A DNA stretch of 47,105 nucleotides. It comes from Verrucomicrobiia bacterium (GTDB lineage: Bacteria > Verrucomicrobiota > Verrucomicrobiia > Limisphaerales > UBA8199). Location: contig DASYZB010000109.1 of assembly GCA_035946615.1 (NCBI GenBank), forward strand, positions 1 through 47,105, in the 5' to 3' direction. The position numbers and the translations under genes are program-made. Of the stretch, positions 1,705 to 37,394 are shown piece by piece. Every line of letters starts with the position of its first letter. The first letter of the stretch is position 1. The notes under the pieces were generated by a model. The model worked only from the letters and a program-made list of their open reading frames with translations, made no database searches and was not told where the DNA came from.

Positions 1705-2919
1705 ATGACCCCAGCCACAACTGAATTGCCTTCCTTTCCGCCGTTAGCTCCTGTTCCTGGTTTGCGGAGCCTCGAAGGTGCACGGCTGGTTCATGTGACC
1801 CAGTCCGTCTCCCGGCTGGCCGGCGGTCTCTTCGAGAGCGTTCGGCATTTATCGCAAAGCGTCCAGGACGCGACCGGGGCGGACCTGACCGTTCTGGGCC
1901 TTGAAGACGAACGCGCCGGGCACGACGTGCCCTGCTGGGCTCCTTTGCGCGTTCGCACCCAGGCGGTCATTGGCCCAGGAAGGTTTGGCTATGCGCCCGG
2001 CCTGTCTCGCGCCCTGAAAGAAAACCACCCTGTGCTGGTCCATTTGCATGGGCTTTGGAAATATCCGGCAGTGGCGGTTTGGCGCTGGGCCCGCCGGACC
2101 CGCCGGCCTTACATCGTTTCGCCTCACGGGATGCTCGAACCATGGGCCCTGACACAATCCCTATTGGCAAAGCGCCTGGCTGCCATGCTCTATCAACGCG
2201 CTTGCTTGCGAGCCGCAACCTGCCTGCGCGCCACCTCGAACATGGAAGCCGATGGCATTCGGCGTGGCGGCTACTCCAACCGGATTGCGCTCGTGCCGAA
2301 TGGGGTTGAAGTGCCCGAGCGCCTTCCAGCGCGCACCGCGCGCAGCAGGCGCAATCGGCGGCTCCTGTTCCTCTCGCGCATTCATCCTAAAAAAGGATTG
2401 CTGAACTTGGTCAAGGCCTGGCACGCCGCCGGCCCGAGCGATTGGGAACTGGTCATCGCCGGACCCGATGAAGGTGGACATCTGGCCGAGGTGAAGGCGG
2501 CGGCGCAGGCGCGCGGGTTGGGGCAACGGGTCATCTTTTGCGGCGAAGTCTGGGGGCGCGATAAGGTAAAGCTCTATTGCGAATCAGACCTGTTCGTGCT
2601 GCCGTCGTTGAGTGAGAATTTTGGGCTCGTGGTGCCCGAGGCGCTGAGCTGCGAACTCCCGGTCATCACGACCCAGGCAACTCCCTGGCAGGAACTCGAA
2701 CGCCACCAATGCGGTTGGTGGATCGGCACGGGAGTAGCGCCGCTGGCCCAGGCGCTCAAGACGGCGTGCGCTTTGCCGGACGCTGCCTTGTACGAGATGG
2801 GGCGCCGCGGCAGGGAACTGGTCGCCGCCAAATATACTTGGGGGCCTATCGGCATCCAGATGGCGCAGGTCTATGAATGGATGCTGGGCCTGGGCGAAAG
2901 GCCAGAGTGTGTGGTGTGA
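1705..2919 (+). CDS. GT4-family glycosyltransferase
   Basis: A 404-residue protein of typical GT-B/GT4 length. The N-terminal Rossmann-like half (about 25-190) contains LVHVTQSVSRLAGGLFESV, the G-G donor-loop region, and later SPHGMLEPWAL. The C-terminal nucleotide-sugar half (about 205-375) begins VPNGVEVPERL and contains LLFLSRIHPKKGL. The family E-x7-E motif is present as SENFGLVVPEAL, with Glu304 and Glu312. The likely role is transfer of a sugar from a nucleotide donor during cell-surface polysaccharide or lipid glycosylation in the cytoplasm or at the inner face of the membrane. Substrates cannot be told from sequence, and no polysaccharide cluster surrounds it. Start ATG 1705 is the first in frame; a later start is possible because residues 1-24 are poorly conserved in character. 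Confidence 0.88.
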   Translation: MTPATTELPSFPPLAPVPGLRSLEGARLVHVTQSVSRLAGGLFESVRHLSQSVQDATGADLTVLGLEDERAGHDVPCWAPLRVRTQAVIGPGRFGYAPGLSRALKENHPVLVHLHGLWKYPAVAVWRWARRTRRPYIVSPHGMLEPWALTQSLLAKRLAAMLYQRACLRAATCLRATSNMEADGIRRGGYSNRIALVPNGVEVPERLPARTARSRRNRRLLFLSRIHPKKGLLNLVKAWHAAGPSDWELVIAGPDEGGHLAEVKAAAQARGLGQRVIFCGEVWGRDKVKLYCESDLFVLPSLSENFGLVVPEALSCELPVITTQATPWQELERHQCGWWIGTGVAPLAQALKTACALPDAALYEMGRRGRELVAAKYTWGPIGIQMAQVYEWMLGLGERPECVV

Positions 2920-2964
2920 ATTGCTCGCAAATACGGATACAAAGCGAGGAACGCGCTATAATCC

Positions 2965-3438
2965 ATGAGCCGCAAAGTCCTACCGTGGCTAACGATCCCG
3001 GCGGCAATCGTCCTCCTGCTCGGTGGTTGTTGGTGGGCAGCCAAGGGGAGATACGAACACGCCCGGGCCGCATGGAAGACGGAAACGCTAGGCCGCCTAG
3101 CCGGATTATCGATCACGAATGAGGAGATCAGCAAAGAACTCGACGGGCTTAAAGGCCTTACTCCCTGGACGAGCGACAATGTTGTCCGAATGACCAACGG
3201 CGAGTTCATTATTTACGCGTTTTGGCACGGCGCCAACAGTGGATTTGTGCACCATTTGTTTCTTGGGCATGCCTCTGATGGGCGATGGCTCTACAGCTCC
3301 TACCATTTCTGCAACAGCATGGTCGCGGTTTCTTCCGACGATCCTCCCGGCTCGATTGGCGAGTTTGAGCAGCGATATTCGGTGCGCGAGTTCGACGGCA
3401 AATCAGACGAGTGCCTACAGGCAACCTGGCCAAACTAA
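2965..3438 (+). CDS. Small membrane-anchored protein of unknown function
   Basis: A 157-residue protein with one N-terminal hydrophobic segment (WLTIPAAIVLLLGGCWWAA), which could be an uncleaved anchor or, given GGC, a weak lipobox. The soluble part has a compact aromatic-rich core (GEFIIYAFWHGANSG, DGRWLYSSYHFCNSMV) that looks like a folded extracytoplasmic domain. I do not recognise a named family. It begins 45 nt after the glycosyltransferase and may be co-transcribed with it. It converges with xylB. Confidence 0.6.
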   Translation: MSRKVLPWLTIPAAIVLLLGGCWWAAKGRYEHARAAWKTETLGRLAGLSITNEEISKELDGLKGLTPWTSDNVVRMTNGEFIIYAFWHGANSGFVHHLFLGHASDGRWLYSSYHFCNSMVAVSSDDPPGSIGEFEQRYSVREFDGKSDECLQATWPN

Positions 3439-5148: not shown

Positions 5149-6150
5149 TCACTCCTTTTGCACGGGATCAGGAAGTCTGAGCTGCACAAGGAGAAAACTG
5201 GCAGGACGCTCTGTTGAAATCGAGGCCTGGGCCAAGCAGGCGGGGATGAGGACGAATTGGCCCGGAAGCAGCACATTCAAATGGGTGGCGCGCAGTTCGA
5301 GTTGGCCGCTAATAACGCCCAGGATTTGCATTCGATGCGGCTGGAGGCTGAAAGTTGCGAGCGGACCGATGCGATAGCGTTGCACCACAAAAAGCGGGTC
5401 GTTCACGAGGGTCTGCGACCGAATCTCAGTGCCGGGGCTTATGGGGCGGAACTCGTTGCTGACAAGGCCCGGCTCGAAATCCTGGAAATCAATGCTCTCG
5501 AGTGATTCGCGCAAGTGAAGCGGGCGCGGCTTGCCGTCGAGCCCCGCCCGGTTCCAATCGAACACGCGGTAGGTCGTGTCCGAGTTTTGCTGGATTTCAA
5601 AGATAACGAGACCGGCGCCGATGGCATGAACCCTGCCACTGGGCAAGAACATCGCGTCGCCCGCTTGAACGGGGATACGGTGGAAACAATCTGCCACCGA
5701 GCCATCGCGCAGTTTCTGTTCGAATCCCGCGCGGGTCACTCGCTGTTTGAGCCCTGCATAAAGCTCGGCGCCGGGCTCGGCATGGGCGATATACCACATT
5801 TCGGTTTTGGGCTCGCCACCCAACTGCGCTGCCTTGGCCGGCGGCGGGTGGACCTGGAGCGAGAGTTTTTCCCTCGCATCGAGGATTTTGATAAGGAGCG
5901 GAAAACGCGCCTCAGGAGGGGTTGAATGTCCAAGCAATTCGCTGGAATGCTGTTCGAGCAGCCAACGCAGGTCTTTGCCTGCCAACGGGCCATTGGCGAT
6001 GACGCTGACGTCGCCGGGCCGATCACTGACTTCCCAGGATTCACCGATGGGCGCCGAAGGGGGGAGCCCTTTGCCGTAAAGGCGCTCCAACTCGCGTCCG
6101 CCCCATACCCGCTGCTTAAAGATTGGGTGAAAGGTAAAGGGATATAACAT
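5149..6150 (-). CDS. manA: Mannose-6-phosphate isomerase, type I-like
   Basis: A 333-residue cupin-type isomerase interconverting fructose 6-phosphate and mannose 6-phosphate, a source of GDP-mannose precursors. It opens with FHPIFKQRVWGGRELERLYG and contains IGESWEVSDRPGDVSVIANG. Metal-ligand motifs are LSLQVHPPP (Gln, His), KTEMWY (Glu) and SGRVHAIGAGLVIFEIQQ (His). The length fits the short bacterial class of type I enzymes. It starts 23 nt after the accA stop, so co-transcription is likely. Confidence 0.9.
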   Translation of the reverse strand: MLYPFTFHPIFKQRVWGGRELERLYGKGLPPSAPIGESWEVSDRPGDVSVIANGPLAGKDLRWLLEQHSSELLGHSTPPEARFPLLIKILDAREKLSLQVHPPPAKAAQLGGEPKTEMWYIAHAEPGAELYAGLKQRVTRAGFEQKLRDGSVADCFHRIPVQAGDAMFLPSGRVHAIGAGLVIFEIQQNSDTTYRVFDWNRAGLDGKPRPLHLRESLESIDFQDFEPGLVSNEFRPISPGTEIRSQTLVNDPLFVVQRYRIGPLATFSLQPHRMQILGVISGQLELRATHLNVLLPGQFVLIPACLAQASISTERPASFLLVQLRLPDPVQKE

Positions 6151-8272: not shown

Positions 8273-9889
8273 TCAGGAGCGTGGCACAGGGCTATCTTCG
8301 GCGATTCTCGCGGCAGGCCCTTTGCCGGTCAGCACTGCCGGTTCGCGCCAGGCATGGCCCGATTGGGCGAGCAGGTCATCGGCCGCGACCGGCCCCCAGG
8401 TGCCGGCTGAATAAAACTCGCGATTGGTCAGCGGCTTGGCATCCCAGGCCTGGCGGATGGAATCCACGATTTGCCACGCGGTCTCCACCTCGTCGCGCCT
8501 GATGAACAGAGTGGCATCGCCCGCCATGGCCTCCAGCAGGAGCCGTTCGTAGGCCTCGGGCGTGTAGGCGCCAAATTCGCTGTCGTAACTGAAATGCATG
8601 CGCACGGGACGGACAGCCAGGCTGGTGCCAGGCACCTTTCCGTTGAAACGGAGTGTAATGCCCTCGTTGGGTTGCAAACGCAGCGTCAGAGAGTTGGAGT
8701 CAAGTTGTTGGCCGCACTCTGCGGCAAACAGGACGTGAGGCGTGGGGCGGAACTGCACGCGCACTTCACTGGCGCTGAGCGGGAGACACTTGCCGGTGCG
8801 CAGGAAAAAGGGAACACCCGACCAGCGCCAATTATCGATGAACAATTCAAGCCCTACATAGGTTTCCACATTCGAATCGGGTTTTACCTTCGGCTCCTGC
8901 CGATAGCCGACCCGCAGTTCGCTATCGACTTTGCCGGCAAAGTACTGGCCGCGAACGACCTGGCGCGCCACCTCTTGGGGTGTCAGGCGCCGGATGGATT
9001 TGAGCAGCTTGACTTTTTCATCCCGGATGCACTCGGCTTCGAGTGAAACCGGCGGCTCCATGGCGACCAGCGAAAGGACCTGCAGCAGATGGTTCTGAAC
9101 CATATCGCGCAACGCCCCGGCTTCTTCGTAATAGCCTCCGCGCTGCCCCACGCCCAATTCCTCGCTGACGGTGATCTGCACATGATCAATCGAGTCCCGA
9201 TTCCAGAGCCGCTCGAAAGTCGCGTTCGAAAAGCGAAACATCAGGATGTTCTGGACGGTCTCCTTGCCCAGATAATGGTCGATGCGAAAGACCTGCTGTT
9301 CGCTGGCATAGCGGGTCAGTTCCCGGTTGAGCTGGCGGGCCGTTTCCAGGTCATGGCCGAAGGGTTTCTCGACCACAATCCGTTGCCAGCCCCGGCCGTT
9401 GGCATCATTTTTTTGCAAAAGCCCCGCCTGATGGAGCTGTTCGATAACCGACCCAAACTGGCTGGGCAAGGTTGCGAGATAAAACAGCAGGTTCTTGCGC
9501 AACGGTTCGCTGCCCAGGGCAGTGAGTTGCTGTTCGAGCCGTTGATAGGCCCCTGGGTCAGTCAGGTCGCCCCGGCAATAGGAGATGTGCTGTGAGAATT
9601 GTTCCCACACGTTGTTATCGACGGGTTTGGTGCGGGAGAACTGGTCCAAGGCCTGGCGCAGTTCCTGGCGCCAGGATGCGTCGGTTTTCTCCCGCCGCGC
9701 AAATCCGATGATGCGGAAATCCGGCGGCATTTGATTGTCGATGAAAAGGTGGTAGAGGGCCGGGACCAGTTTGCGCGCGGTCAAATCGCCGCTGGCCCCG
9801 AAGATGACGATGGAACAGGGGGCCAGTGCTTTGCGGACCTCGCCCAACCGGCACGTACCGATTTCATCGAGTGTTACGGATTGATTCAC
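8273..9889 (-). CDS. zwf: Glucose-6-phosphate 1-dehydrogenase
   Basis: A 538-residue Zwf oxidising glucose 6-phosphate to 6-phosphogluconolactone with NAD(P)+. The Rossmann motif is IVIFGASGDLTARKL. The family active-site signature RIDHYLGKETVQN carries the catalytic His and the substrate-binding Lys. Further landmarks are EKPFGHDLETA and the C-terminal EAYERLLLEAMAGDATLF. It is the first gene of the minus-strand carbon block and is followed at once by pgl. It is slightly longer than the usual 480-510 residues because of extensions at both ends. Confidence 0.95.
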   Translation of the reverse strand: MNQSVTLDEIGTCRLGEVRKALAPCSIVIFGASGDLTARKLVPALYHLFIDNQMPPDFRIIGFARREKTDASWRQELRQALDQFSRTKPVDNNVWEQFSQHISYCRGDLTDPGAYQRLEQQLTALGSEPLRKNLLFYLATLPSQFGSVIEQLHQAGLLQKNDANGRGWQRIVVEKPFGHDLETARQLNRELTRYASEQQVFRIDHYLGKETVQNILMFRFSNATFERLWNRDSIDHVQITVSEELGVGQRGGYYEEAGALRDMVQNHLLQVLSLVAMEPPVSLEAECIRDEKVKLLKSIRRLTPQEVARQVVRGQYFAGKVDSELRVGYRQEPKVKPDSNVETYVGLELFIDNWRWSGVPFFLRTGKCLPLSASEVRVQFRPTPHVLFAAECGQQLDSNSLTLRLQPNEGITLRFNGKVPGTSLAVRPVRMHFSYDSEFGAYTPEAYERLLLEAMAGDATLFIRRDEVETAWQIVDSIRQAWDAKPLTNREFYSAGTWGPVAADDLLAQSGHAWREPAVLTGKGPAARIAEDSPVPRS

Positions 9890-9971
9890 GAGCGAACATC
9901 GCTGAGGTGATGCCTAAATTCAACCGTCCTTTCTATGCGGTCCGCGGTCCGTAGGCTGCAGTTCTTTGCGC

Positions 9972-9999
9972 TTGCGGGCGGTCTTTATTGTTCCATAAT
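9972..9999 (+). promoter_or_regulatory. Candidate sigma-70 promoter of the tRNA gene
   Basis: TTGCGG (9972-9977) and CATAAT (9994-9999) are separated by 16 nt and lie just upstream of the mature tRNA 5' end at 10018. Box fit and position are the only evidence. Confidence 0.45.
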
Positions 10000-10017
10000 A
10001 ATTCCCATTAACGTGAT

Positions 10018-10093
10018 GGGGTCGTAGCTCAGTTGGTAGAGCGTCTCGTTCGCAATGAGAAGGTCGCAGGTTCGATTCCTGTCGGCTCCACCA
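10018..10093 (+). tRNA. tRNA-Ala (anticodon CGC)
   Basis: A full 76-nt cloverleaf. The acceptor stem is GGGGTCG/CGGCTCC with the G3-U70 wobble pair that marks alanine tRNAs. The D stem is GCTC/GAGC. The anticodon stem is TCTCG/TGAGA around the loop TTCGCAA, giving anticodon CGC. The T arm is GCAGG-TTCGATT-CCTGT. The CCA end is encoded. Confidence 0.97.
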
Positions 10094-10416
10094 TATTGAA
10101 TTTCGTTCGGATTTGGTCGCTGCGCGTTGCGCAGCGGCGGTGGTTTCAGCCGAGAAATTCCAGGGTTTTTTGAAGGAAACGGCTAGCGTCTGAGAGCGAA
10201 CAAGGCGGTTCAATCCGACTTTTTGGAGAAATGACTTCATTTCCAATCAGTTGTCGCAAGAAACCCATTTTCTGGCCTGATTTACCTGCAAAACGAGGTT
10301 TTTGAGGGGTTCAACCCGCGGCGGCATAGGCCGCAGGCTGGGCGGTGCGCAAATCTGGTTCGAGAAAAAGCACCTTTCCCTGTCCGATTTCTGACCCGGT
10401 GGCTAACATGCAATGA
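10094..10416. other. Intergenic region between tRNA-Ala and the ECF fusion gene
   Basis: This 323-bp stretch contains a GCTGCGC - gtt - GCGCAGC hairpin (10119-10135) about 25 nt after the tRNA, with no T-run. It may be a weak tRNA terminator. The rest, up to the GTG at 10417, should contain the promoter of the sigma-factor gene, but I see no convincing -35/-10 pair. Confidence 0.4.
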
Positions 10417-12117
10417 GTGACGGATCGGACCGACAGCCTATTGCTGAAAGCCTACGTCGAACGCAGGCTTGAGGCCGCGTTCAACGAACTGGTCCACCGC
10501 CATGTGGACCTTGTCTATTCAGCCGCCATTCGAATGGTTCGTGATCCGCATCTTGCCGAAGACGTGACCCAAGGCGCATTCATCGCGCTGGCCAGGCAAG
10601 CTTCCGAACTGGTGGAGCGGGCGACTTTGGCGGGGTGGCTGCACCGGACCGCGCAAAACATCGCCGCCCAGACCGTCCGCGCCATCGAACGCCGTCGGGC
10701 GCGCGAACAGGAGGCCTTTGCCATGAGCGAACCGATTTCAACTTCAGCGGATGCCGGGTGGGAGCAGATCGAACCGCACCTGGATGCCGCGCTGGGCGAA
10801 TTGACTGACGCTGACCGCGATGCCGTGGTGCTGCGCTATTTTCATAAGAAATCCGCCGCCGAAATCGCCACCATTCTCGGGGTGAGCGACGATGCCGCGC
10901 AAAAACGGGTGAGCCGTGCAGTGGAAAAACTGCGCGAGATTTTCGCGAAGAACAAAATCACCATGGGCGCGGGCAGTCTGGGAATTTTGATTTCCGCGAA
11001 TGCCGTGCACGCTGCCCCGGTGGGACTGGCTGCGAAAATCTTAGCCGCAACTTCCGCAATAACCGTTACCGCCGGAATCGCCATGCTCCAAAAGCTTTTT
11101 ATCGCTGGATTTGCCGCGGTCGCGATTGGCGCCGGCATTTACTCGTTTCATTTGCAAAAGCAAGTCGCCGCGTTACAGGAACAACAAACATCGCAGAACC
11201 AGCAAATTGCGCAAATGAGCCAGGAACGCGACGACGCAAAAAGTCAATTGGCGGCGGCACAACGGGAAAATGAGCAGCAACAAAACAATCGGGATGAACT
11301 CTTGCGATTGCGCGGCGAAACCGCCGTTTTGCGGCGGCAACTGGACGAAGCGACTAAACAACATCGCGCGCTGCCGGCCGTAGTTGTGGCAATGAACACC
11401 AATTCGTCCGTGCCGCAAATCGAGATGGAAGCCAGATTCATGACGGTGCCGAACGACGTATCTGCCGGTTGGTATGACTCGACCAGTCCCAGTGTTCTTA
11501 CCAGCGAAAGCTTCTTAACCGGGCTAAAGCAATTACGCTCACGCGATGATGTTGAAGGTCTCGCTGAGCAGAGAGTCGTGACCCTGAGCGGACGCCAGGT
11601 TCAAATCGGGACAACACAAACCATTTCTGTCGTGACCAATTTTTGCCTTAAGGAAACAAATGGCACTTGCAGCATCGTTCCTCAAGCAGGGCCTATCGAG
11701 TGTGGTCCGGTTCTCGACGCGGTGCCGACAGTCTTGTCCGACGGTTATACAGTCAGATTACCGGTCATCACTTCGGTGACCGAATTCTTAGGTTACGCCC
11801 CATCTGCGAACACGACGCCAGCTTATAATTCAGCGGGGCAGGAATTTGATATCCCGACAGTCTCACCTCAATTTCGCGTGCAGCAAACAACGAATTCAGT
11901 GAATATGCTGGACGGCCAAACGCTGGTTTTTAGATTGAATGATGATCAAATGCCTGCGGCCGCCGCGCTTGCGGAACTGGATGGCAGCAAATCAAACTCT
12001 CTTAATCGGCACACGCTCGTGTTCGTCACCGCAACCATCATTGACCCTGCAGGTAATCGGGTGCACGCGGATGCCGGAAGCTATACAAATATTCCGCCGC
12101 AAACAGTCAGCCAGTGA
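10417..12117 (+). CDS. Membrane-tethered ECF sigma factor fused to a secretin-like C-terminal domain
   Basis: A 566-residue fusion. Residues 1-180 are an ECF sigma factor: region 2 (FNELVHRHVDLVYSAAIRMV, then LAEDVTQGAFIALARQ) and region 4 (LTDADRDAVVLRYFHKKSA, then AEIATILGVSDDAAQKRVS). A hydrophobic stretch leads to a transmembrane segment near 227-244 (LFIAGFAAVAIGAGIYSF) and a Gln-rich coiled coil at about 246-320. The rest is beta-rich and resembles the secretin (PF00263) core: QIEMEARFMTV, then GPVLDAVPTVLSDGYTVRLP, then SVTEFLGY, and near the end RHTLVFVTATIIDPAGNRVH. The start is GTG 10417; the ATG at 10413 is in another frame. If the orientation is N-in, the secretin-like part lies outside the cytoplasmic membrane and could sense the envelope while holding sigma at the membrane. 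No separate anti-sigma gene is adjacent. Confidence 0.85.
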   Translation: MTDRTDSLLLKAYVERRLEAAFNELVHRHVDLVYSAAIRMVRDPHLAEDVTQGAFIALARQASELVERATLAGWLHRTAQNIAAQTVRAIERRRAREQEAFAMSEPISTSADAGWEQIEPHLDAALGELTDADRDAVVLRYFHKKSAAEIATILGVSDDAAQKRVSRAVEKLREIFAKNKITMGAGSLGILISANAVHAAPVGLAAKILAATSAITVTAGIAMLQKLFIAGFAAVAIGAGIYSFHLQKQVAALQEQQTSQNQQIAQMSQERDDAKSQLAAAQRENEQQQNNRDELLRLRGETAVLRRQLDEATKQHRALPAVVVAMNTNSSVPQIEMEARFMTVPNDVSAGWYDSTSPSVLTSESFLTGLKQLRSRDDVEGLAEQRVVTLSGRQVQIGTTQTISVVTNFCLKETNGTCSIVPQAGPIECGPVLDAVPTVLSDGYTVRLPVITSVTEFLGYAPSANTTPAYNSAGQEFDIPTVSPQFRVQQTTNSVNMLDGQTLVFRLNDDQMPAAAALAELDGSKSNSLNRHTLVFVTATIIDPAGNRVHADAGSYTNIPPQTVSQ

Positions 12118-30518: not shown

Positions 30519-30671
30519 ATGTTATACACAATTGCGGTCGTCCTGATCCTCCTGTGGCTGCTGGGTCTGGTTACCGGCTACACGATGGGCTCATTTATTC
30601 ACGTGCTGTTAGTCATTGCAGTCATCATGATCCTGGTCAACCTCATTTCCGGTCGCAGACGGCTGCTCTGA
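30519..30671 (+). CDS. lmo0937-family small membrane protein
   Basis: A 50-residue protein with start ATG 30519 after AAAGGAAAAA. It contains two transmembrane helices, MLYTIAVVLILLWLLGLVTG and SFIHVLLVIAVIMILVNLIS, and a short basic tail (GRRRLL). Length, the WLLGLVTGYTMG turn and the basic end fit the lmo0937 family of tiny stress-associated membrane proteins, whose molecular role is unknown. It is the third member of the small envelope/stress group after the lipoprotein and the repeat protein. Confidence 0.8.
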   Translation: MLYTIAVVLILLWLLGLVTGYTMGSFIHVLLVIAVIMILVNLISGRRRLL

Positions 30672-30889
30672 GACGCTGCAAACCGAACCTGACGCCTCGG
30701 ATGCCCTTCCGAAGAATCGTTGGTCCCCTTGAGCTGACGATCACTAATCTCCAGACGGACTCCGACCACAGAAATATTTTTGCGCTTTCCGGCATGTCCA
30801 TGCAGAACAGCGGCGGCGCGAAAAATTTTCTTGGCTTTTTGGGGGAACCCATTTTAACTGGCGCTGTTCTTTGAAAGTGATGGACCTTT

Positions 30890-31062
30890 GGGTTCATCAT
30901 CTCGTCACAACCAAATGTCAGGGAACCCCGTGTGAATCGGGGACGGTTGCGCCACTGTAACGGGTCACAGACTCCCAAAGCCACTGGTCCACCAGGCCGG
31001 GAAGGCGGGAGCGAGGTTTTGAGCCCGAAGTCAGGATACCGGTTTGGCTGTGCTCGTCACGA
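30890..31062 (+). promoter_or_regulatory. Cobalamin (B12) riboswitch
   Basis: Conserved elements appear in order: GTCAGGGAACCCCGTGTGAAT (the 5' part of the core), GCGCCACTGTAACGGG, then GAGCCCGAAGTCAGGATACC (the B12-box end). These are the hallmarks of the AdoCbl-type aptamer. It lies about 210 nt upstream of the exported-protein gene at 31274, with further hairpins in between (CTTCTC/GAGAAG near 31090; GTTCCG/CGGAAC just before the start). It should turn the downstream operon down when cobalamin is plentiful. Confidence 0.92.
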
Positions 31063-31273
31063 CCCCGCTCTGCGGGATCAACTTCTCCGTCAAAGAGAAG
31101 GATGAGGCCAGCCTGTTCCGTGAGTGCGGGATGGGATTCGCTGAGTGCCTTCATTCTCCGTTTTGCCGAGGGGTTTGAAGGTTTTTCATTTCAAGAACCT
31201 GCAAACTTCGCGCTGGTCTCTCAACTCAACCGTTCCGCGAATTTTTTTTCGGAACAGAAATGAAAGATCAGCC

Positions 31274-32296
31274 ATGAAAAAAATCCGCCTGCTGGCAATT
31301 GCCGGCCTGTTCGCGCTGCCCGCCGTCCGCGCGGCCACATTCACTGAGAGTTTTTCCACCAATCCGTTGCAAAACGGTTGGCAGGTTTTCGGCCAGACGA
31401 ATCTGTTCAAGTGGGATTCGGTGGGTCAAAATCTTGCCGTCACTTGGGATTCAGCGCAAACGAACAGTTGTTTTTACCATCCCCTGGGGACCATTCTCGC
31501 CCGCGACGACGATTTCAGCGTCGCGTTTGATCTGCGGCTCAATGACTTTATGGCTGGTGTGGACCCACAGATGCCCAGCACATTCCCATTGTCAGTCGGG
31601 CTGCTCAATCTGGCTCAAGCCTCACAACCCGGTTTCCTGCGCGGCACCGGGTATAACTCCCCTGACCTGGTCGAGTTCGCCTTTTTCCCTGATCCGGGCG
31701 GTTCTTGGATATATGGGCCGTCACTCACGGCGGTCATCAGTGATGCGACCGGTTTCAACTACGCATCCGGCGGTTATGCCCCAGACAGTCTGACGACCAA
31801 CGACCTTTACCGGGTGAACCTGGCTTATACTGCCAGCAACTCCAATCTGGTGATGACCATCCTGCGTAACAACCAGATGTTTGTTTCCAATTGCATCGCC
31901 ACGTTGGGAGCCAGTTTTACGGATTTTCGCGTCGATGCCATTTCCATCAGCAGCTACAGCCAGGCAGGACAGGATACAACCATTTATACCAATGCCGACG
32001 GCAGCACGATTATCTACGCAGGGTCGCTGCTCGCGCACGGCGTGGCGGACAATTTTGTTCTCACCCTGCCGACGCCGCCGGTGCAAAATTTGACCGGCGC
32101 CCTCAGTGATGGCCTGTGGCAGGCGCAATTCACCAGCCGCAGCAACTGGCTTTACACGCTTGAACGCACGACGGATTTTGTTTCGTGGACGGACGTTTCT
32201 CTTGCCGCCAGTGGCAACGGTGCGAATCTGGTTTTGCAGGACACGAATGCGCCGGCAAGCCAGGGTTTCTATCGCGTGCGCGCCCAACGCCCATAA
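31274..32296 (+). CDS. Exported beta-rich protein under B12-riboswitch control
   Basis: A 340-residue protein with signal peptide MKKIRLLAIAGLFALPAVRA. The mature part starts TFTESFSTNPLQNGWQVFG and contains FSVAFDLRLNDFMAG and VNLAYTASNSNLVMTILRN, the pattern of a LamG/concanavalin-like beta sandwich. The end (NWLYTLERTTDFVSWTDVSL to FYRVRAQRP) is the common terminal domain of secreted proteins in this phylum. No B12-binding family is recognisable, and no TonB-dependent receptor is present. As first gene after the riboswitch it is a candidate surface corrinoid-binding or processing protein; this is inference from context. ATG 31274 is chosen for its signal peptide; the frame extends upstream through the leader. 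Confidence 0.75.
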   Translation: MKKIRLLAIAGLFALPAVRAATFTESFSTNPLQNGWQVFGQTNLFKWDSVGQNLAVTWDSAQTNSCFYHPLGTILARDDDFSVAFDLRLNDFMAGVDPQMPSTFPLSVGLLNLAQASQPGFLRGTGYNSPDLVEFAFFPDPGGSWIYGPSLTAVISDATGFNYASGGYAPDSLTTNDLYRVNLAYTASNSNLVMTILRNNQMFVSNCIATLGASFTDFRVDAISISSYSQAGQDTTIYTNADGSTIIYAGSLLAHGVADNFVLTLPTPPVQNLTGALSDGLWQAQFTSRSNWLYTLERTTDFVSWTDVSLAASGNGANLVLQDTNAPASQGFYRVRAQRP

Positions 32297-32300
32297 TCGC

Positions 32301-33089
32301 ATGACCAAAGAGAAAATCCTTTTTTGTTGGAGCGGCGGCAAGGATTCCGCATTGGCGCTGAACCGGCTCCGGCAGGACAACCGCTACGAAATCGTTTCGC
32401 TGCTCACAACCTGCAACGAGCATTTCCAGCGCGTCTCGATGCACGGTGTCCGGCTGGAGCTGCTCGACGCGCAGGCCGAAGCCATCGGGTTGCCGCTGGA
32501 AAAGGTCTTTGTCAGCCAGCGCAGCTCCAACGAGGAGTATCAACAAAAAATGTCCGCGTGCTTGCTCGCGCACAAGGCGCGCGGCGTGAGCGGTTGCGCG
32601 TTCGGCGACATTTTCCTCAAAGACCTGAAGCGTTGGCGCGATGAAAACCTGGCAAAAATCGGTATGCGCGGGATTTACCCGATTTGGAAAGTGGATTCGC
32701 GCGAACTCATTCAGGAGTTTTTTGCTCTTGGCTTTCGCACAGTCATCTGCTGCGCCAACGATGCCTATCTTGGCGAAGAAATGGTGGGGCGCAACATCGA
32801 CGAAGAATTCCTGCGCGCCCTGCCGCCGGAAGTCGATCCCTGCGGCGAAAACGGTGAGTTCCATTCGTTTGCTTTTGCGGGTCCGGTTTTCAAGCAGCCG
32901 GTGAAATTCGAACTTGGCGAGAAAGTTTACCGCCCGGTTGAAGTGACCCATCCGAGCGATTCGACTTCGGCCTACGTTTGCCCGGCTGCTCCGCGCCGCA
33001 CCAAAGGCTTTTGGTTTTGCGATTTGTTACCAGACAACACAACAGAAGAAGTTTTAACCGGCCACAAACCGGAAAGGAAACAGATATGA
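32301..33089 (+). CDS. Dph6-like PP-loop ATPase (B12-operon member)
   Basis: A 262-residue protein of the diphthine-ammonia-ligase/MJ0570 family of adenine-nucleotide alpha hydrolases. The PP-loop is FCWSGGKDSALAL (residues 8-20), and GENGEFHSFAF is the typical later motif. In archaea and eukaryotes this family amidates diphthine using ATP and ammonium. Bacteria lack diphthamide, so the bacterial role is unknown. Here it lies 4 nt after the exported protein and overlaps the next gene (ATGA), all behind a B12 riboswitch. An ATP-dependent amidation or other step in corrinoid salvage is a plausible inference, not shown by the sequence. Confidence 0.85.
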   Translation: MTKEKILFCWSGGKDSALALNRLRQDNRYEIVSLLTTCNEHFQRVSMHGVRLELLDAQAEAIGLPLEKVFVSQRSSNEEYQQKMSACLLAHKARGVSGCAFGDIFLKDLKRWRDENLAKIGMRGIYPIWKVDSRELIQEFFALGFRTVICCANDAYLGEEMVGRNIDEEFLRALPPEVDPCGENGEFHSFAFAGPVFKQPVKFELGEKVYRPVEVTHPSDSTSAYVCPAAPRRTKGFWFCDLLPDNTTEEVLTGHKPERKQI

Positions 33090-33613
33090 ACAAAAGTAGA
33101 TTCATCGTGCTCGCGGGAATGATCCTGGGAGCGGCCGCCTCGCGTTTGATCCCGCATCCCCCAAACCTCACGCCCATTGCCGCTATCGCCCTGTTTGGCG
33201 GCGCGCAGTTCGCAGATAAACGCGTTGCGTTCCTGGTGCCGCTGGCTGGGCTGCTTTTGAGCGATCTCGCTTTAGGATTTTACGCGATCACCGCGGTGGT
33301 TTATGCGAGCTTCGCGCTCACGGTTTGCCTTGGTTTTTGGGTGCGCCGCCACCGCTCCGTGCGGCGCATCGCATTAGGAGTCCTGGCAGGGGCAATTTTA
33401 TTTTTCGCGCTGACGAATTTCGGCGTTTGGGCGATTGATAGCTTGTACCCGAAAACCCTGGCGGGCCTGATCGATTGTTATGTTGCCGGCATCCCCTTCT
33501 TCCGAAATATGCTATTGGGTGATTTGCTCTATTCGACGCTGCTCTTCGGGGGATTCGCCCTCGCAGAAAGCCGTTTTGTCCTTCTGCGCGAACCTGCGTT
33601 GGGAGTCGTCTGA
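33086..33613 (+). CDS. DUF6580-type putative transport membrane protein
   Basis: A 175-residue integral membrane protein with about five hydrophobic segments: FIVLAGMILGAAASRLI, the conserved-looking PHPPNLTPIAAIALFGGAQF, VAFLVPLAGLLLSDLALGFY, GVLAGAILFFALTNFGVW and a last helix after FFRNMLLGDLLYSTLLFGGF. Size and topology resemble S-components of ECF vitamin transporters, and I assign it to the DUF6580 'putative transport protein' group from memory of its N-terminal motif. In a B12-riboswitch operon it is the best candidate for the inner-membrane corrinoid or precursor transporter. It is coupled to both neighbours by ATGA and TGATG overlaps. Confidence 0.75.
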   Translation: MNKSRFIVLAGMILGAAASRLIPHPPNLTPIAAIALFGGAQFADKRVAFLVPLAGLLLSDLALGFYAITAVVYASFALTVCLGFWVRRHRSVRRIALGVLAGAILFFALTNFGVWAIDSLYPKTLAGLIDCYVAGIPFFRNMLLGDLLYSTLLFGGFALAESRFVLLREPALGVV

Positions 33614-33813
33614 TGACCATCGAATCCCCCTGTATTGACGTCTGCCTGATGTCCGAAGACAAAACGGTCTGCATCGGCTGTTTTCGGTCGTTATCTGAAA
33701 TCGCAAACTGGGGTCGCTTGACCGATGCCGAAAAGCTTCGTGTCATCGCCGCTGCTCGAGCAAGACAGTCGGCCTCGGAACGCAAGAAGACGCCATTTGA
33801 GCAAGTCCTATGA
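33613..33813 (+). CDS. DUF1289 Cys-rich protein
   Basis: A 66-residue protein. SPCIDVCLMSEDKTVCIGCF followed by RSLSEIANW is the DUF1289 signature, with four Cys likely binding a metal or Fe-S cluster. The rest is a charged helix. Its start overlaps the previous stop (TGATG) and its stop overlaps the next start (ATGA), so it belongs to the riboswitch operon. The role of DUF1289 is unknown. Confidence 0.88.
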   Translation: MTIESPCIDVCLMSEDKTVCIGCFRSLSEIANWGRLTDAEKLRVIAAARARQSASERKKTPFEQVL

Positions 33814-34913
33814 ACCCTGCGCGCATTGTTTCCTTTCTGCCGTCGGCGACGGAAATGGCATACGCCCTTGGCCTTGGGGACCAGGTCGTTGGCGTCTCCC
33901 ATGAATGCGACTTTCCTCCAGACGCCAGGACAAAACCGGTCGTGGTTCGGTGTTCGTTGCCGGTAGAAACGATGAGCCTGCGGGAAATTGATTCTGCGGT
34001 TGCCGAATGCATCGGCCAGGGCGGCAATCTTTACGAGGTGGACCAACAGGCCATCGCGCGGCTGGCGCCAACGCACATTCTCACCCAGGCGCTGTGCCAG
34101 GTCTGCGCGCCCTCCGGCGGCGAAATCGCGCGCGCCCTCAAAGCGCTGCCCTCCAAGCCCACAATCCTCTGGTTCACGCCCCATAGCATCGAGGACGTTT
34201 TCGACAACCTTCGCGAACTGGGCAAGGCCACTGGCCGTTCGGCCAACGCCGAAGAACTTGTCACTTCCGCGCGTGTGCGTTTGCAAAGAGTCACCGACCT
34301 GACGCAAACGGCGTCGCATCGTCGCGTTTTCTGCCTCGAATGGATTGACCCATATTACTGCAGCGGCCACTGGGTGCCGGAGATGGTCGAACTTGCCGGC
34401 GGCCAGGATGCGCTTGGGCGCAAGAAAACTGATTCCGTTCGGACCAAGTGGGCGGACATCGCGGCGTGGGCGCCGGAAATTCTAATCGTGTCGCCCTGCG
34501 GTTTTGGCATCGAAAAGGCCACAGAACAGGCGAATTTGCTTTTGCAGCAGCCGGGCTGGAGCGAGCTGCCGGCGGTCCGCGATAACTGTGTTTTCGCCGT
34601 AAACGCCAACGCCTATTTCGCCCGGCCCGGCCCGCGCCTGGTGGACGGAGTGGAACTGCTCGCGCATCTGTTCCACCCGGAACTGTTCGACTGGAACGGC
34701 CCCGCAGATGCCTTTCGCGCAATTCCAACATCGAGTGCCGGCGAATCCAAAAGCCGAATCAAAACTTGCCCCCTCTGCGGCCACGCGTTCGTGTGCAAAA
34801 TGGGCGGATGCTGGTGCGATGATTTTCCACCGCTCCAGCCGTCTAGCGCGCCCGGGGCGGCTTGCCTATGTCGTGCGTGTTTGGGGGAAGCGGTTGAACG
34901 CGTGCGGCGCTGA
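33810..34913 (+). CDS. BtuF-like cobalamin-binding protein fused to a Cys-rich CWC domain
   Basis: A 367-residue fusion. Residues 1-275 are a periplasmic-binding-protein fold of the BtuF/FepB class: RIVSFLPSATEMAYALGLGD, VGVSHECDFPPDAR, and the EWIDPYYCSGHWVPEMVELA segment typical of cobalamin-binding members. There is no signal peptide; the domain begins at residue 4, so it should stay in the cytoplasm. From residue 320 a second domain starts: CPLCGHAFVCKMGGCWCDDF followed by CLCRACL, matching the Cys_rich_CWC family, probably a zinc or Fe-S site. It ends the ATGA-coupled block behind the B12 riboswitch. The likely role is intracellular corrinoid binding, with the Cys-rich part for metal or redox chemistry or interaction. 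No BtuCD genes are nearby. Confidence 0.85.
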   Translation: MNPARIVSFLPSATEMAYALGLGDQVVGVSHECDFPPDARTKPVVVRCSLPVETMSLREIDSAVAECIGQGGNLYEVDQQAIARLAPTHILTQALCQVCAPSGGEIARALKALPSKPTILWFTPHSIEDVFDNLRELGKATGRSANAEELVTSARVRLQRVTDLTQTASHRRVFCLEWIDPYYCSGHWVPEMVELAGGQDALGRKKTDSVRTKWADIAAWAPEILIVSPCGFGIEKATEQANLLLQQPGWSELPAVRDNCVFAVNANAYFARPGPRLVDGVELLAHLFHPELFDWNGPADAFRAIPTSSAGESKSRIKTCPLCGHAFVCKMGGCWCDDFPPLQPSSAPGAACLCRACLGEAVERVRR

Positions 34914-34919
34914 AAGATC

Positions 34920-35654
34920 ATGAAGCGGCGCGCCTTCACATTGATTGAACTGCTGGTGGTGATTGCCCTCATTGGGATTCTTGCGGCGCTGCTGCTGCCG
35001 GCGCTGGCCAAAGCCAGGGCATCGGCCAATCGCGCCCGATGCGCAAGCAACTTGCGTCAACTGGGCGTCGCCACGCAACTCTACTGGAGTGACAGTGGAG
35101 GGAATTGCTTCACTTATTTATACGGCCCCACTAACGGTGGTCAGGCCTATTGGTTCGGCTGGATCGGGCCGGGACCCGAAGGCCATCGGCCCTTTGACTT
35201 GTCGGTTGGGAAATTATTTCCTTATCTCAATGGCAGCGATGTGCGGCTTTGCCCGGCACTTGACCCCACGTTGGCGCAGTTCAAATTGAAGGCCACCAAT
35301 GTGGTGTTCAGTTACGGTTACAATAACTATCTCTCGGTCAGTCTCAGCCAGGCGCCGATAAATTGCAGCCGAATCAAGCGGCCAACAGAAACCGCTTTGT
35401 TTGCTGACGCCGCGCAGGTGAACGATTTCCAGGCGCCGGCTTCGCACAGCAATCCGATGTTTGAAGAATGGTATTATGTGGATAACACAGTGAATTATCC
35501 CAACGGCCATTTCCGCCATGCTCAAAAGGCCAACGTCACTTTCTGTGATGGGCATGTGGCGCTGGAATCAATGCTGTCCGGTTCGCTGGACACAAGATTG
35601 CCCAACCAATTCATCGGCAGATTGCGCCCGGAAATCTTAATCCTGCCACCGTGA
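34920..35654 (+). CDS. Prepilin-like protein with H-X9-DG domain
   Basis: A 244-residue type II pseudopilin-like protein. The N-terminal cleavage/methylation motif is [20 protein letters not shown], with Phe as +1 after Ala and Glu at +5. The C-terminal H-X9-DG motif is in [15 protein letters not shown]. Such proteins are abundant in Planctomycetes and Verrucomicrobia and are thought to assemble in or be exported by a type II-like pseudopilus; individual functions are unknown. It begins 6 nt after the BtuF-CWC stop, so it could be read from the B12 operon, but it may be an unrelated neighbour. Confidence 0.88.
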
Positions 35655-35727
35655 GAGCGGCATTCATTCAGGATTATTGCGCCGCGCCTTCCTTTGCTCT
35701 GGGCGGGCTTGGCCTCGCGCTGAGCCG

Positions 35728-36534
35728 TCAGCCTGGCGTTCCTGAATTCCCCTCCCGTTCTGTCATCAACAATTCCTGCACCAGCTCGCCACTGGCCTCT
35801 TCGACCTGTTGCCACGCGCCCAGCACACGGAACTGTTTGCCCTCGATGATGGCAAATTGATGCGCCCGGGTTTTCCAGGGGCGCAAGTCTGCAGTCGTGG
35901 CAACCAGGGTCATGGCCTTTCCGCCGAACAAGGGATGGCCTTGTAACAATTTGTCTAGAAAATCCAGCCACCACTGCAAGTGCCGCAGGTCCAGCCCGGC
36001 GAGGGGATTATCCACCAGCAATATCTCCGGGCGCAGCATCAGGGCCCGGGCCAGGCCGACCCGCTTCTGCCAGTTCGGTCCGATGGCGCCCGGGGTGCTG
36101 TCGGCCCAAGGCTCCAGCTCCATCGCCTTAAGCACGGCGCGCACATCCGGTTCGGCCTCGGCTGGGGTCAGATTCCGATGGTAGCGCAACGGCAGCGAGA
36201 CATTCTCGCTCACCGTCAGGTGATTGAACAATTGGCCGCCGTCGAACACCAGACCCAGGCGCAGGCGCTGGTTCAGACGCGCCTGATCGAAGATTGGCAT
36301 GTCTTCTCCGAACAAGCGATAGCGTCCGCTCAGGGGCGGCAGCACGCCGCCGGTCATCATGAGGAAATCGCTCTTGCCGGAGCCCTGGAGGCCGGCTACG
36401 ACCCAGTAATCGCCCGCCTGCACCGACCAGTGGATGCCTTCGGCGGCGACGAGGCTGGGGTCGAGCATTGACCCGGCGGCGACGTCCTCCATCTGGATAA
36501 CCGGGAGCTGGAGTTGAGGGGCAGGCGAGTCCAT
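35728..36534 (-). CDS. MlaF-like ABC ATPase with degenerate catalytic motifs
   Basis: A 268-residue ABC ATPase. Walker A is GLQGSGKSD. The signature-helix position reads GPNWQKRVGLARALML, with NWQKR where LSGGQ is expected. Walker B is ILLVDNPLAGLD: Asp175 is kept, but the catalytic Glu is Asn176 (codon AAT). These changes should slow or block ATP hydrolysis. An N-terminal 30 residues precede the core, and the end is acidic. It overlaps the MlaE gene by TGATG and is therefore its partner. It may work with regulatory ATP binding only, or pair with a second ATPase encoded elsewhere. Start ATG 36534; a TTG one codon earlier is possible. Confidence 0.8.
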   Translation of the reverse strand: MDSPAPQLQLPVIQMEDVAAGSMLDPSLVAAEGIHWSVQAGDYWVVAGLQGSGKSDFLMMTGGVLPPLSGRYRLFGEDMPIFDQARLNQRLRLGLVFDGGQLFNHLTVSENVSLPLRYHRNLTPAEAEPDVRAVLKAMELEPWADSTPGAIGPNWQKRVGLARALMLRPEILLVDNPLAGLDLRHLQWWLDFLDKLLQGHPLFGGKAMTLVATTADLRPWKTRAHQFAIIEGKQFRVLGAWQQVEEASGELVQELLMTEREGNSGTPG

Positions 36535-37394
36535 CAAGTCGCGAGATAAATGATGATGAACAGCGCGTCAATGAGCACGCAGGCTATGACGCTCTGGGCG
36601 ACCGCGCGAACCGTCGCATGTGACACCTCTTCGAGGTGGAGCGGTTGGGCCAAGCCATGATAACAGGTGACGATGGCAATAACGAATCCGAATACGAGCG
36701 TCTTAAGCGCCAGCAAGGCAAAATCCAAACCGCTCAGCGACACGGCCAGTTGCCGGAAATAATCAGCCGGCAGCAGCGGCACATTTTGGAGAAATGCCCA
36801 AAGATAGCCGCTGAACAACGCCCCGATGATCAAATAAACCGTCAGGGCGAACACACCCAAGGCCATCCCGATCACGCGCGGGACAACCAGGTAATGGACC
36901 GGGTCAATGCCCAGCGCTTCCAATGCCTCGACCTCGCCGGTGGCCCGAGCGGTGCCCAACTCGACCACGTTAGCCGTGCCGATGCGCGCCAGCACCAACA
37001 GCGCCGTGATGAGCGGTCCGAGTTCACGCACGACCACCAGCACCATGATTGTGCCCAGGTAATTGATGGCTCCAACGCGCGTCAGCCAGGAGACGCTTTG
37101 ACCTATCACCAGCAGCCCAAGGCCGGCAGCCACAAACAAGAACATCGGCAGCAAGCGCAGGCCCGCCCGCGCCGTCTCGCGATGGATGAGCGGCCAAACC
37201 ACATGCCGCGCTGAGCGGAACTTGGCGAGGATGACGCCTAATGTGATGAGCGTGAAAGCGCCCAAACCCTGGACGGTTAGCAGCAGGCGAAGGAGGCTGC
37301 GGCCCAGGTAATGCGTGAAGGTCGGTGGCAAAGGCAAACGCCACAGGGCGCGCACATGGCGTGAATCAAACGCGCTGGCATTCCCTTTTTCCAC
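36534..37394 (-). CDS. MlaE-type ABC transporter permease
   Basis: A 286-residue membrane protein with about six transmembrane segments, for example FTLITLGVILAKF, MFLFVAAGLGLLVIGQSV and GMALGVFALTVYLIIGALFSGYL. The MlaE signature is IMVLVVVRELGPLITALLVL followed by VVELGTARATGEVEALEALG and DPVHYLVVPRVIGMA. It is the permease of an MCE-type lipid transporter, with its ATPase directly downstream. No MCE-domain (MlaD) gene accompanies it; the only one here is at 22721, whose locus in turn lacks an ATPase. The start is GTG 37394, just after a 14-bp perfect palindrome. Confidence 0.87.
   Translation of the reverse strand: MEKGNASAFDSRHVRALWRLPLPPTFTHYLGRSLLRLLLTVQGLGAFTLITLGVILAKFRSARHVVWPLIHRETARAGLRLLPMFLFVAAGLGLLVIGQSVSWLTRVGAINYLGTIMVLVVVRELGPLITALLVLARIGTANVVELGTARATGEVEALEALGIDPVHYLVVPRVIGMALGVFALTVYLIIGALFSGYLWAFLQNVPLLPADYFRQLAVSLSGLDFALLALKTLVFGFVIAIVTCYHGLAQPLHLEEVSHATVRAVAQSVIACVLIDALFIIIYLAT

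Follow-up and report, generated by a model that had tools for sequence, protein, structure and literature searches.

A 47,105-nucleotide contig of a Verrucomicrobiia bacterium (order Limisphaerales; GenBank assembly GCA_035946615.1, contig DASYZB010000109.1), from here on referred to as the window, encodes a putative corrinoid-acquisition operon on its forward strand. The unit begins with a cobalamin riboswitch aptamer (RF00174) at positions 30896–31061, which scores 82.1 bits against a cut-off of 31.5 (E-value 8e-19), in line with the original prediction, made from the sequence alone, that a cobalamin riboswitch precedes the gene chain. A sigma-70-like promoter match (30871–30900), a consensus match only, sits at the upstream edge of the aptamer, and a hydrophobic open reading frame of 50 amino acids is found immediately upstream of the riboswitch region (30519–30671). 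The first gene, exp (31274–32296), encodes an exported β-sandwich protein that is a candidate corrinoid-capture protein based on its riboswitch linkage and a low-confidence lectin-like model. It is followed by genes for a Dph6-like PP-loop ATPase of the DUF71-B12 type (32301–33089; PF01902, E-value 4e-35), a DUF6580 protein proposed to be an inner-membrane corrinoid transporter (33086–33613; PF20221, E-value 3e-60, 203.5 bits against a cut-off of 27), a small cysteine-containing DUF1289 protein (33613–33813; PF06945, E-value 1e-18) and a BtuF-type binding protein with a cysteine-rich CWC-like C-terminus (33810–34913; PF01497, E-value 7e-20; CWC at 18.1 bits, below the cut-off of 24). exp and the DUF71 gene are separated by a 4-nucleotide gap, while the DUF71, DUF6580, DUF1289 and BtuF-CWC genes overlap by 4, 1 and 4 nucleotides, respectively, so that the four are joined as had been described.

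The operon was initially placed at 30890–34913, an interval that contains the predicted gene set and misses the end of the unit. Only 6 nucleotides downstream of the BtuF-CWC gene lies the start of a prepilin-like gene (34920–35654), whose product carries the N-terminal methylation motif of type IV prepilin-like proteins (PF07963, E-value 2e-7, 30.8 bits against a cut-off of 21.2). An operon end at 34913 was rejected based on the presence of prepilin homologues in the riboswitch units of relatives and the lack of a promoter match in between, with a consensus scan of 34800–35800 returning no sigma-70-like promoter. Beyond the prepilin-like gene, the next genes kept by the codon-model gene caller are located on the opposite strand (35728–37394). 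A terminator scan at the operon end gave a result near chance (2 found, 1.4 expected). The prepilin-like gene probably belongs to the riboswitch unit as its last gene.

We interpret this unit, with a probability of roughly 0.78, as a B12-repressed corrinoid-acquisition operon that operates without BtuB and BtuCD. The alternative corrinoid uptake route originally proposed is the best reading of the locus, and the evidence that backs it is comparative throughout. The host genome is a 96% complete 5.6-Mb draft of which the window is one contig, and a covariance-model scan identified the riboswitch of the window as its sole RF00174 match. Profile searches located metH, encoding methionine synthase, and B12-binding domains in seven places, five of them above the cut-off. 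FecCD/BtuC permeases gave 0 matches in the draft genome whereas 13 of 14 control genomes were positive, which bears out the predicted absence of BtuCD; CobS could not be found in the draft either (10 of 14 control genomes positive). Given the presence of metH and the absence of both FecCD and CobS, the host seems to depend on complete imported corrinoid that it would have to take up without a classical permease. BtuB is absent from the operon as claimed, but not clearly so from the rest of the genome, where one intact and one apparently truncated TonB-receptor gene (G000:C47:29886-30104, L142) are encoded, neither of which adjoins the riboswitch. Compared with the classical BtuBFCD system, the operon shows the same regulatory logic and contains a BtuF-type protein, but its host has neither a riboswitch-linked BtuB nor a FecCD match, and the BtuF-type protein lacks an apparent signal peptide.

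For the order of the window, 50 riboswitch loci are listed, including that of the window itself, and two of them offer limited downstream sequence (196 bases in L105 and 2.7 kb in L063). Homology searches detected exp in 33 loci, a prepilin in 37 and both in 32. The riboswitch of this order mostly controls a secreted protein together with an orthologous prepilin. A second secreted family, here named VVDY, is present in 27 of the 50 loci, and no convincing solved relative was found for two VVDY-like secreted proteins. DUF1289 was found in three loci including the window, class I ribonucleotide reductase in four and a BtuB-like receptor in three, none of the latter containing a prepilin. It should be noted that the BtuB-like, NrdA and MetE queries were named by reading, and that a TonB receptor read in L120 went undetected by the BtuB-like query. 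In L081, L082, L083 and L091, the riboswitch precedes a class I ribonucleotide reductase, also named by reading, in place of exp and prepilin. In the order, the pairing of exp and prepilin is common and the complete gene set of the window is rare. Throughout the class, 32 of 36 strong exp genes have a listed riboswitch on the same strand no more than 4 kb upstream; this distance, like the metH distances given below, holds among the matches listed. Three of the other four strong exp genes are found on different contigs and the fourth in a genome without a listed riboswitch (G274), while three of seven weak exp matches lie beside one.

exp did not match any Pfam family at an E-value of 0.1, and its assignment as a DUF4465 protein was rejected as there was no match to PF14717. 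Binding of B12 has been demonstrated for DUF4465 proteins (PMC13398666), and members of this family occupy the place of exp in two systems. In the Phycisphaerae locus L161, the gene order is riboswitch, DUF4465 (E-value 3e-55), prepilin, DUF71 and DUF6580. In genome G210, the riboswitch is followed by a DUF4465 gene, confirmed by Pfam, another secreted protein and a prepilin. DUF4465/BtuJ and other surface B12-capture proteins of Bacteroides (PMC13398666, PMC12751083) are riboswitch-controlled, secreted and of β-jellyroll type, similar to the exp module. However, exp has no DUF4465 match and no TonB receptor partner in its operon, where a prepilin is found instead. Overall, exp is somewhat more apt to be a corrinoid-binding protein than one of unrelated function.

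The prepilins linked to the riboswitch largely form one family. A set of 33 aligned relatives is 44–69% identical to the protein of the window and two more, in L085 and L103, are 33% identical, whereas its best-scoring paralogue in the host is 38% identical over 216 residues. A motif scan, which undercounted prepilins in the riboswitch loci (34 of 50 compared with 37 by homology, the count used here), identified one prepilin in 196 kb further downstream on the same strand and four in 624 kb on the other strand. An alternative explanation with close to an even chance of being correct is that exp and the prepilin function in adhesion or secretion and share only their regulation with the B12 genes, in which case the prepilin would export exp or anchor it at the surface and take no part in uptake through the outer membrane. 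The host encodes a large prepilin-like repertoire, with 69 matches to the prepilin of the window including itself, so that such proteins are common there, and the low-confidence exp model resembles lectins. Arguing for a closer tie to uptake are the family relationship described above, the co-occurrence of the prepilin with exp in 32 of 50 loci but with a BtuB-like receptor in none of three, and its recurrence beside a DUF4465 capture protein in another phylum (L161). Participation of the prepilin in uptake itself is nonetheless doubtful.

The DUF6580 protein would provide the inner-membrane step, and we consider it likely, judging by its predicted fold and genomic associations, that it transports corrinoids. 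An AlphaFold2 model of DUF6580, based on an alignment of 51 rows, reached a mean predicted local distance difference test score (pLDDT) of 95. In a Foldseek search with this model, ranks 1–4 as well as rank 8 (FolT) were S-components of energy-coupling factor (ECF) transporters, none of them reaching an E-value of 0.001. The top solved chain according to VIA-align was cobalamin-bound BtuM (8c7p/8ovv; Z 14.4 over 159 residues, root-mean-square deviation 2.9–3.0), followed by FolT (13.1) and by 4huq_S, BioY, ThiT and RibU (12.3–12.8), with Z-scores to ECF S-components spanning 8.9–13.1. The model supports the S-component-like inner-membrane protein that had been predicted. BtuM is a solitary cobalamin transporter of Proteobacteria that works without an ECF motor in a growth test and is predicted to carry B12 through the inner membrane where BtuB occurs without BtuCDF (PMC6072759). 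In addition to being the best solved fold match of the modeled DUF6580, it is of about equal size. DUF6580 differs from BtuM in that it is often accompanied by DUF71 and a BtuF-type protein without signal peptide. DUF6580 shares its predicted S-component fold with ECF transporters as well; the only EcfT-type (CbiQ) match in the host genome contains an in-frame TGA and is part of a locus that appears, by reading and not by profile scan, to encode a CbiM-type metal transporter.

Profile searches of 286 genomes of the class identified DUF6580 in 146 of them. Scores are bimodal, with A copies at 187–203 bits in seven genomes and the next listed copy, a B copy, at 138 bits. The window encodes an A-type protein, and the host genome contains one A and one B copy. 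FecCD matches at an E-value of 1e-3 were obtained in 222 of the 286 genomes, and only the 73 with a best match of at least 190 bits were counted as containing FecCD, a cut chosen after seeing the score gap; the best listed match among the excluded genomes, at 52.1 bits, was taken to represent other permeases. On this basis, 9 genomes encode both proteins, 64 only FecCD, 137 only DUF6580 and 76 neither (p 2e-15). Among the 241 genomes encoding metH, the corresponding counts are 8, 61, 130 and 42 (p 1.5e-20), these Fisher p-values ignoring the relatedness of the genomes. Exclusion is also seen within families (odds ratio 0.038, p 2.4e-8, six informative families), as illustrated by family f33, where both, only FecCD, only DUF6580 and neither are found in 1, 15, 11 and 0 genomes, and by family f37 (3, 1, 4 and 0). 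The two proteins tend to exclude each other, with DUF6580 replacing FecCD in metH genomes of the class and also inside families. Further, DUF6580 is located at most 6 kb from metH in 11 of 100 genomes encoding both among the matches listed (families f2, f37, f41 and f43), in all 11 cases on the strand of metH.

A scan of named genomes returned at least 80 DUF6580 loci; all counts out of 80 refer to the 80 listed. These are labelled Verrucomicrobia, Acidobacteria, Planctomycetes groups, Bacteroidetes groups, Proteobacteria and others, with the nearest named relatives of the host DUF6580 among the matches listed being labelled Verrucomicrobia. Using a covariance model built from 14 aptamers and a threshold of E<1e-3, a riboswitch match was detected in 39 of the 80 loci and on the strand of DUF6580 in 38 of these 39; in L165, the match is located downstream of DUF6580. 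Rescanning 20 loci picked among the positives of this model with Rfam yielded 19 cobalamin aptamers, namely 18 RF00174 and one adenosylcobalamin (AdoCbl)-II riboswitch, with L168 falling below the cut-off. The concern raised alongside the original prediction, that its genes might occur mostly without riboswitches, fails for exp, 32 of whose 36 strong genes follow a listed riboswitch, and loses weight for DUF6580, with a riboswitch match in 39 of 80 loci. Clustering of neighbors anywhere in the 80 loci gave TonB receptors in 34, DUF71 in 26, BtuF-type proteins in 15 and FecCD-like proteins in 6, the first three clusters having been checked by Pfam on one or few members and the FecCD-like and ATP-binding cassette (ABC) ATPase clusters having been named by reading. 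The direct order riboswitch, TonB receptor, DUF6580 is found in 10 listed loci (L168, L172, L173, L175, L182, L183, L194, L196, L200 and L223), and a riboswitch immediately precedes DUF6580 in four (L160, L228, L221 and L226). In a contig labelled Levybacteria, the riboswitch before DUF6580 is of the AdoCbl-II type (RF01689; L184:8356-8434) and not RF00174. L228 also contains a cyclic di-GMP-I riboswitch (5906–5993), a few kilobases away from its B12 riboswitch and DUF6580 gene.

The closest relative of the operon among the matches listed is L150, whose DUF6580 is 80% identical, and the named relatives L150, L151 and L153 contain more of the gene set of the window than the loci of the order do. 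The two sets overlap, as L152 and L170 of the named scan apparently represent the same contigs as L063 and L066 of the order set, to judge by their identical lengths and places. In L150, exp is split over two frames, and the operon is flanked on both sides (2–1354, 2307–3425 and 9655–10563) by open reading frames that were read without a scan as conjugative-relaxase pieces and an integrase-like frame.

DUF6580 might instead move another B12-linked cargo, for example a metal, a lower-ligand base or a compound related to folate or methionine, with the corrinoid entering by a different route. The S-component fold is common to carriers of folate, thiamin, biotin and riboflavin, with Z-scores near that of BtuM, and proximity to metH is equally compatible with folate or methionine. 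Pointing to corrinoids are the two-gene units of TonB receptor and DUF6580 behind a riboswitch, the riboswitches directly upstream of DUF6580, the AdoCbl-II riboswitch before DUF6580 in L184, and the replacement of FecCD by DUF6580, while a lower-ligand base alone would be unusable by the known pathway in a host without CobS. We regard a different cargo as improbable.

The ATPase of the window contains the sequence ENGEFH at residue 183, corresponding to the ENGEF/YH motif that separates DUF71-B12 proteins from Dph6, which has EGGE/DxE (PMC3541065). By this motif, the Dph6-like gene is assigned to the published DUF71-B12 subfamily, and its link to B12 salvage has already been described (PMC3541065): 75 of 102 DUF71-B12 genes were reported beside B12 transporter genes, and a CbiZ-like role was suggested. 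The ATPase of the window likewise adjoins B12 uptake genes but is found beside DUF6580 and not BtuCD. The proposed CbiZ-like route, in which pseudo-B12 would be salvaged and then re-assembled (PMC3541065), fits poorly with a host lacking CobS, making corrinoid cleavage and re-assembly by DUF71 unlikely in this genome. It is more plausible that DUF71 performs another corrinoid modification or a release step.

The BtuF-type protein of the window shows sequence matches to solved BtuF chains. Its N-terminus, MNPARIVSFLPSATEM, has no signal peptide apparent by reading, in agreement with the cytoplasmic BtuF originally proposed. The same was read for most of the 11 DUF6580 loci that encode a BtuF-type protein without a FecCD-like gene: no signal peptide is present in L150, L151, L160, L167, L168, L195 and L228 or, by its likely start, in L212, whereas the leader is ambiguous in L164 and L211 and hydrophobic in L210. 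In the four loci with a FecCD-like gene, a hydrophobic leader is found in L193, L203 and L217 and none in L159. A CWC-like motif at the end of BtuF occurs in the window, L150 and L168. In the riboswitch loci L108, L109, L113, L114, L089 and L090, which have no BtuF match, open reading frames with a cysteine-rich CPLCG...CWC-like motif are found as part of neighboring frames. An ordinary Btu system, in which BtuF works with a distant ABC permease encoded elsewhere and an unrelated generic TonB receptor, would account for the BtuF-type protein and the intact TonB-receptor gene and would agree with a 2009 survey in which more than 90% of B12-uptaking organisms had BtuFCD homologues (PMC2667541), but is very improbable in view of the lack of FecCD matches in the draft genome, the missing signal peptide of BtuF and a TonB receptor that is not linked to the one riboswitch found.

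Several observations weigh against a DUF6580-based corrinoid-acquisition operon. The host genome is a draft of 161 contigs. Within the order, the inner genes are rare in riboswitch loci (DUF6580 and DUF71 in 3 of 50 each, BtuF-type in 5 of 50), and outside of it prepilins were detected by motif in only 3 of 21 riboswitch loci. No riboswitch match at E<1e-3 was obtained for 41 of the 80 listed DUF6580 loci, some of which are on short contigs. exp has no link to a solved B12 binder by sequence search, and its model, based on a seven-row alignment, is poor (pLDDT 65), so that its matches to lectins are just a hint. BtuM leads the other S-components by just 1.3 Z in the VIA-align comparison. DUF6580 also has no detectable sequence relation to BtuM: the A-subfamily profile retrieved 0 PDB sequences at E-values up to 1, on which basis a recognisable solved sequence relative was rejected. 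Further, BtuM requires an invariant cobalt-ligating cysteine (PMC6072759), whereas no cysteine reaches 90% conservation among 51 DUF6580 homologues, C131 being invariant in a seven-sequence set only. DUF6580 would thus work like BtuM, yet shows neither the cysteine nor the sequence relation that mark BtuM proteins. One could speculate that H24 of the DUF6580 PHPPN motif serves as a cobalt ligand; it is conserved in A copies and not in the aligned B copies, an alignment from which the subfamily-B rows L013, L015 and L017 were left out. Lastly, 42 of 241 metH genomes encode neither FecCD nor DUF6580, meaning that another route exists and that arguments from absence are not airtight. Of these 42 genomes, 20 belong to genus g39 of family f25. 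This suggests a further inner-membrane B12 route in genomes with neither protein, about half of them from a single genus.

We propose the following scheme for the corrinoid-acquisition operon. At low corrinoid levels, the riboswitch would stay open, and secreted exp may capture corrinoid outside the cell or at its surface. The prepilin-like protein, probably assembled by a type IV pilus or type II secretion machinery, might display or export exp or assist the captured corrinoid through the outer membrane, the weakest step of the scheme. DUF6580, as a solitary protein of S-component fold resembling BtuM, would then carry the corrinoid through the inner membrane without an ABC motor, as indicated by fold and phylogenetic evidence. 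Inside the cell, the signal-less BtuF-type protein may bind the corrinoid and the DUF71-B12 ATPase may modify it, so that uptake would be pulled by trapping. The riboswitch, the operon layout, the lack of FecCD and CobS matches in the draft, the predicted fold, the linkage and the replacement pattern are the observed parts of this scheme. Its full form, in which the order and some Phycisphaerae replace BtuB by a secreted capture protein and a dedicated pseudopilin, and BtuCD by a motor-less BtuM-like DUF6580 with a cytoplasmic BtuF/DUF71 trap, is tentative.

The riboswitch, the BtuF-type protein and DUF71-B12 are of known kinds. Neither DUF6580, as a term or as a B12 transporter, nor a unit of capture protein and prepilin was found in the literature searched, which covered few subscription papers. 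By what means many B12-dependent bacteria take up the vitamin is described in print as an open question (PMC6072759, PMC6593275). DUF6580 represents a concrete candidate for a B12 importer that is spread over several phyla. If the capture module linked to the prepilin does take part in uptake, it would represent a new kind of outer-membrane passage. If the full scheme is true, B12 would be imported from start to finish without a classical Btu transporter.

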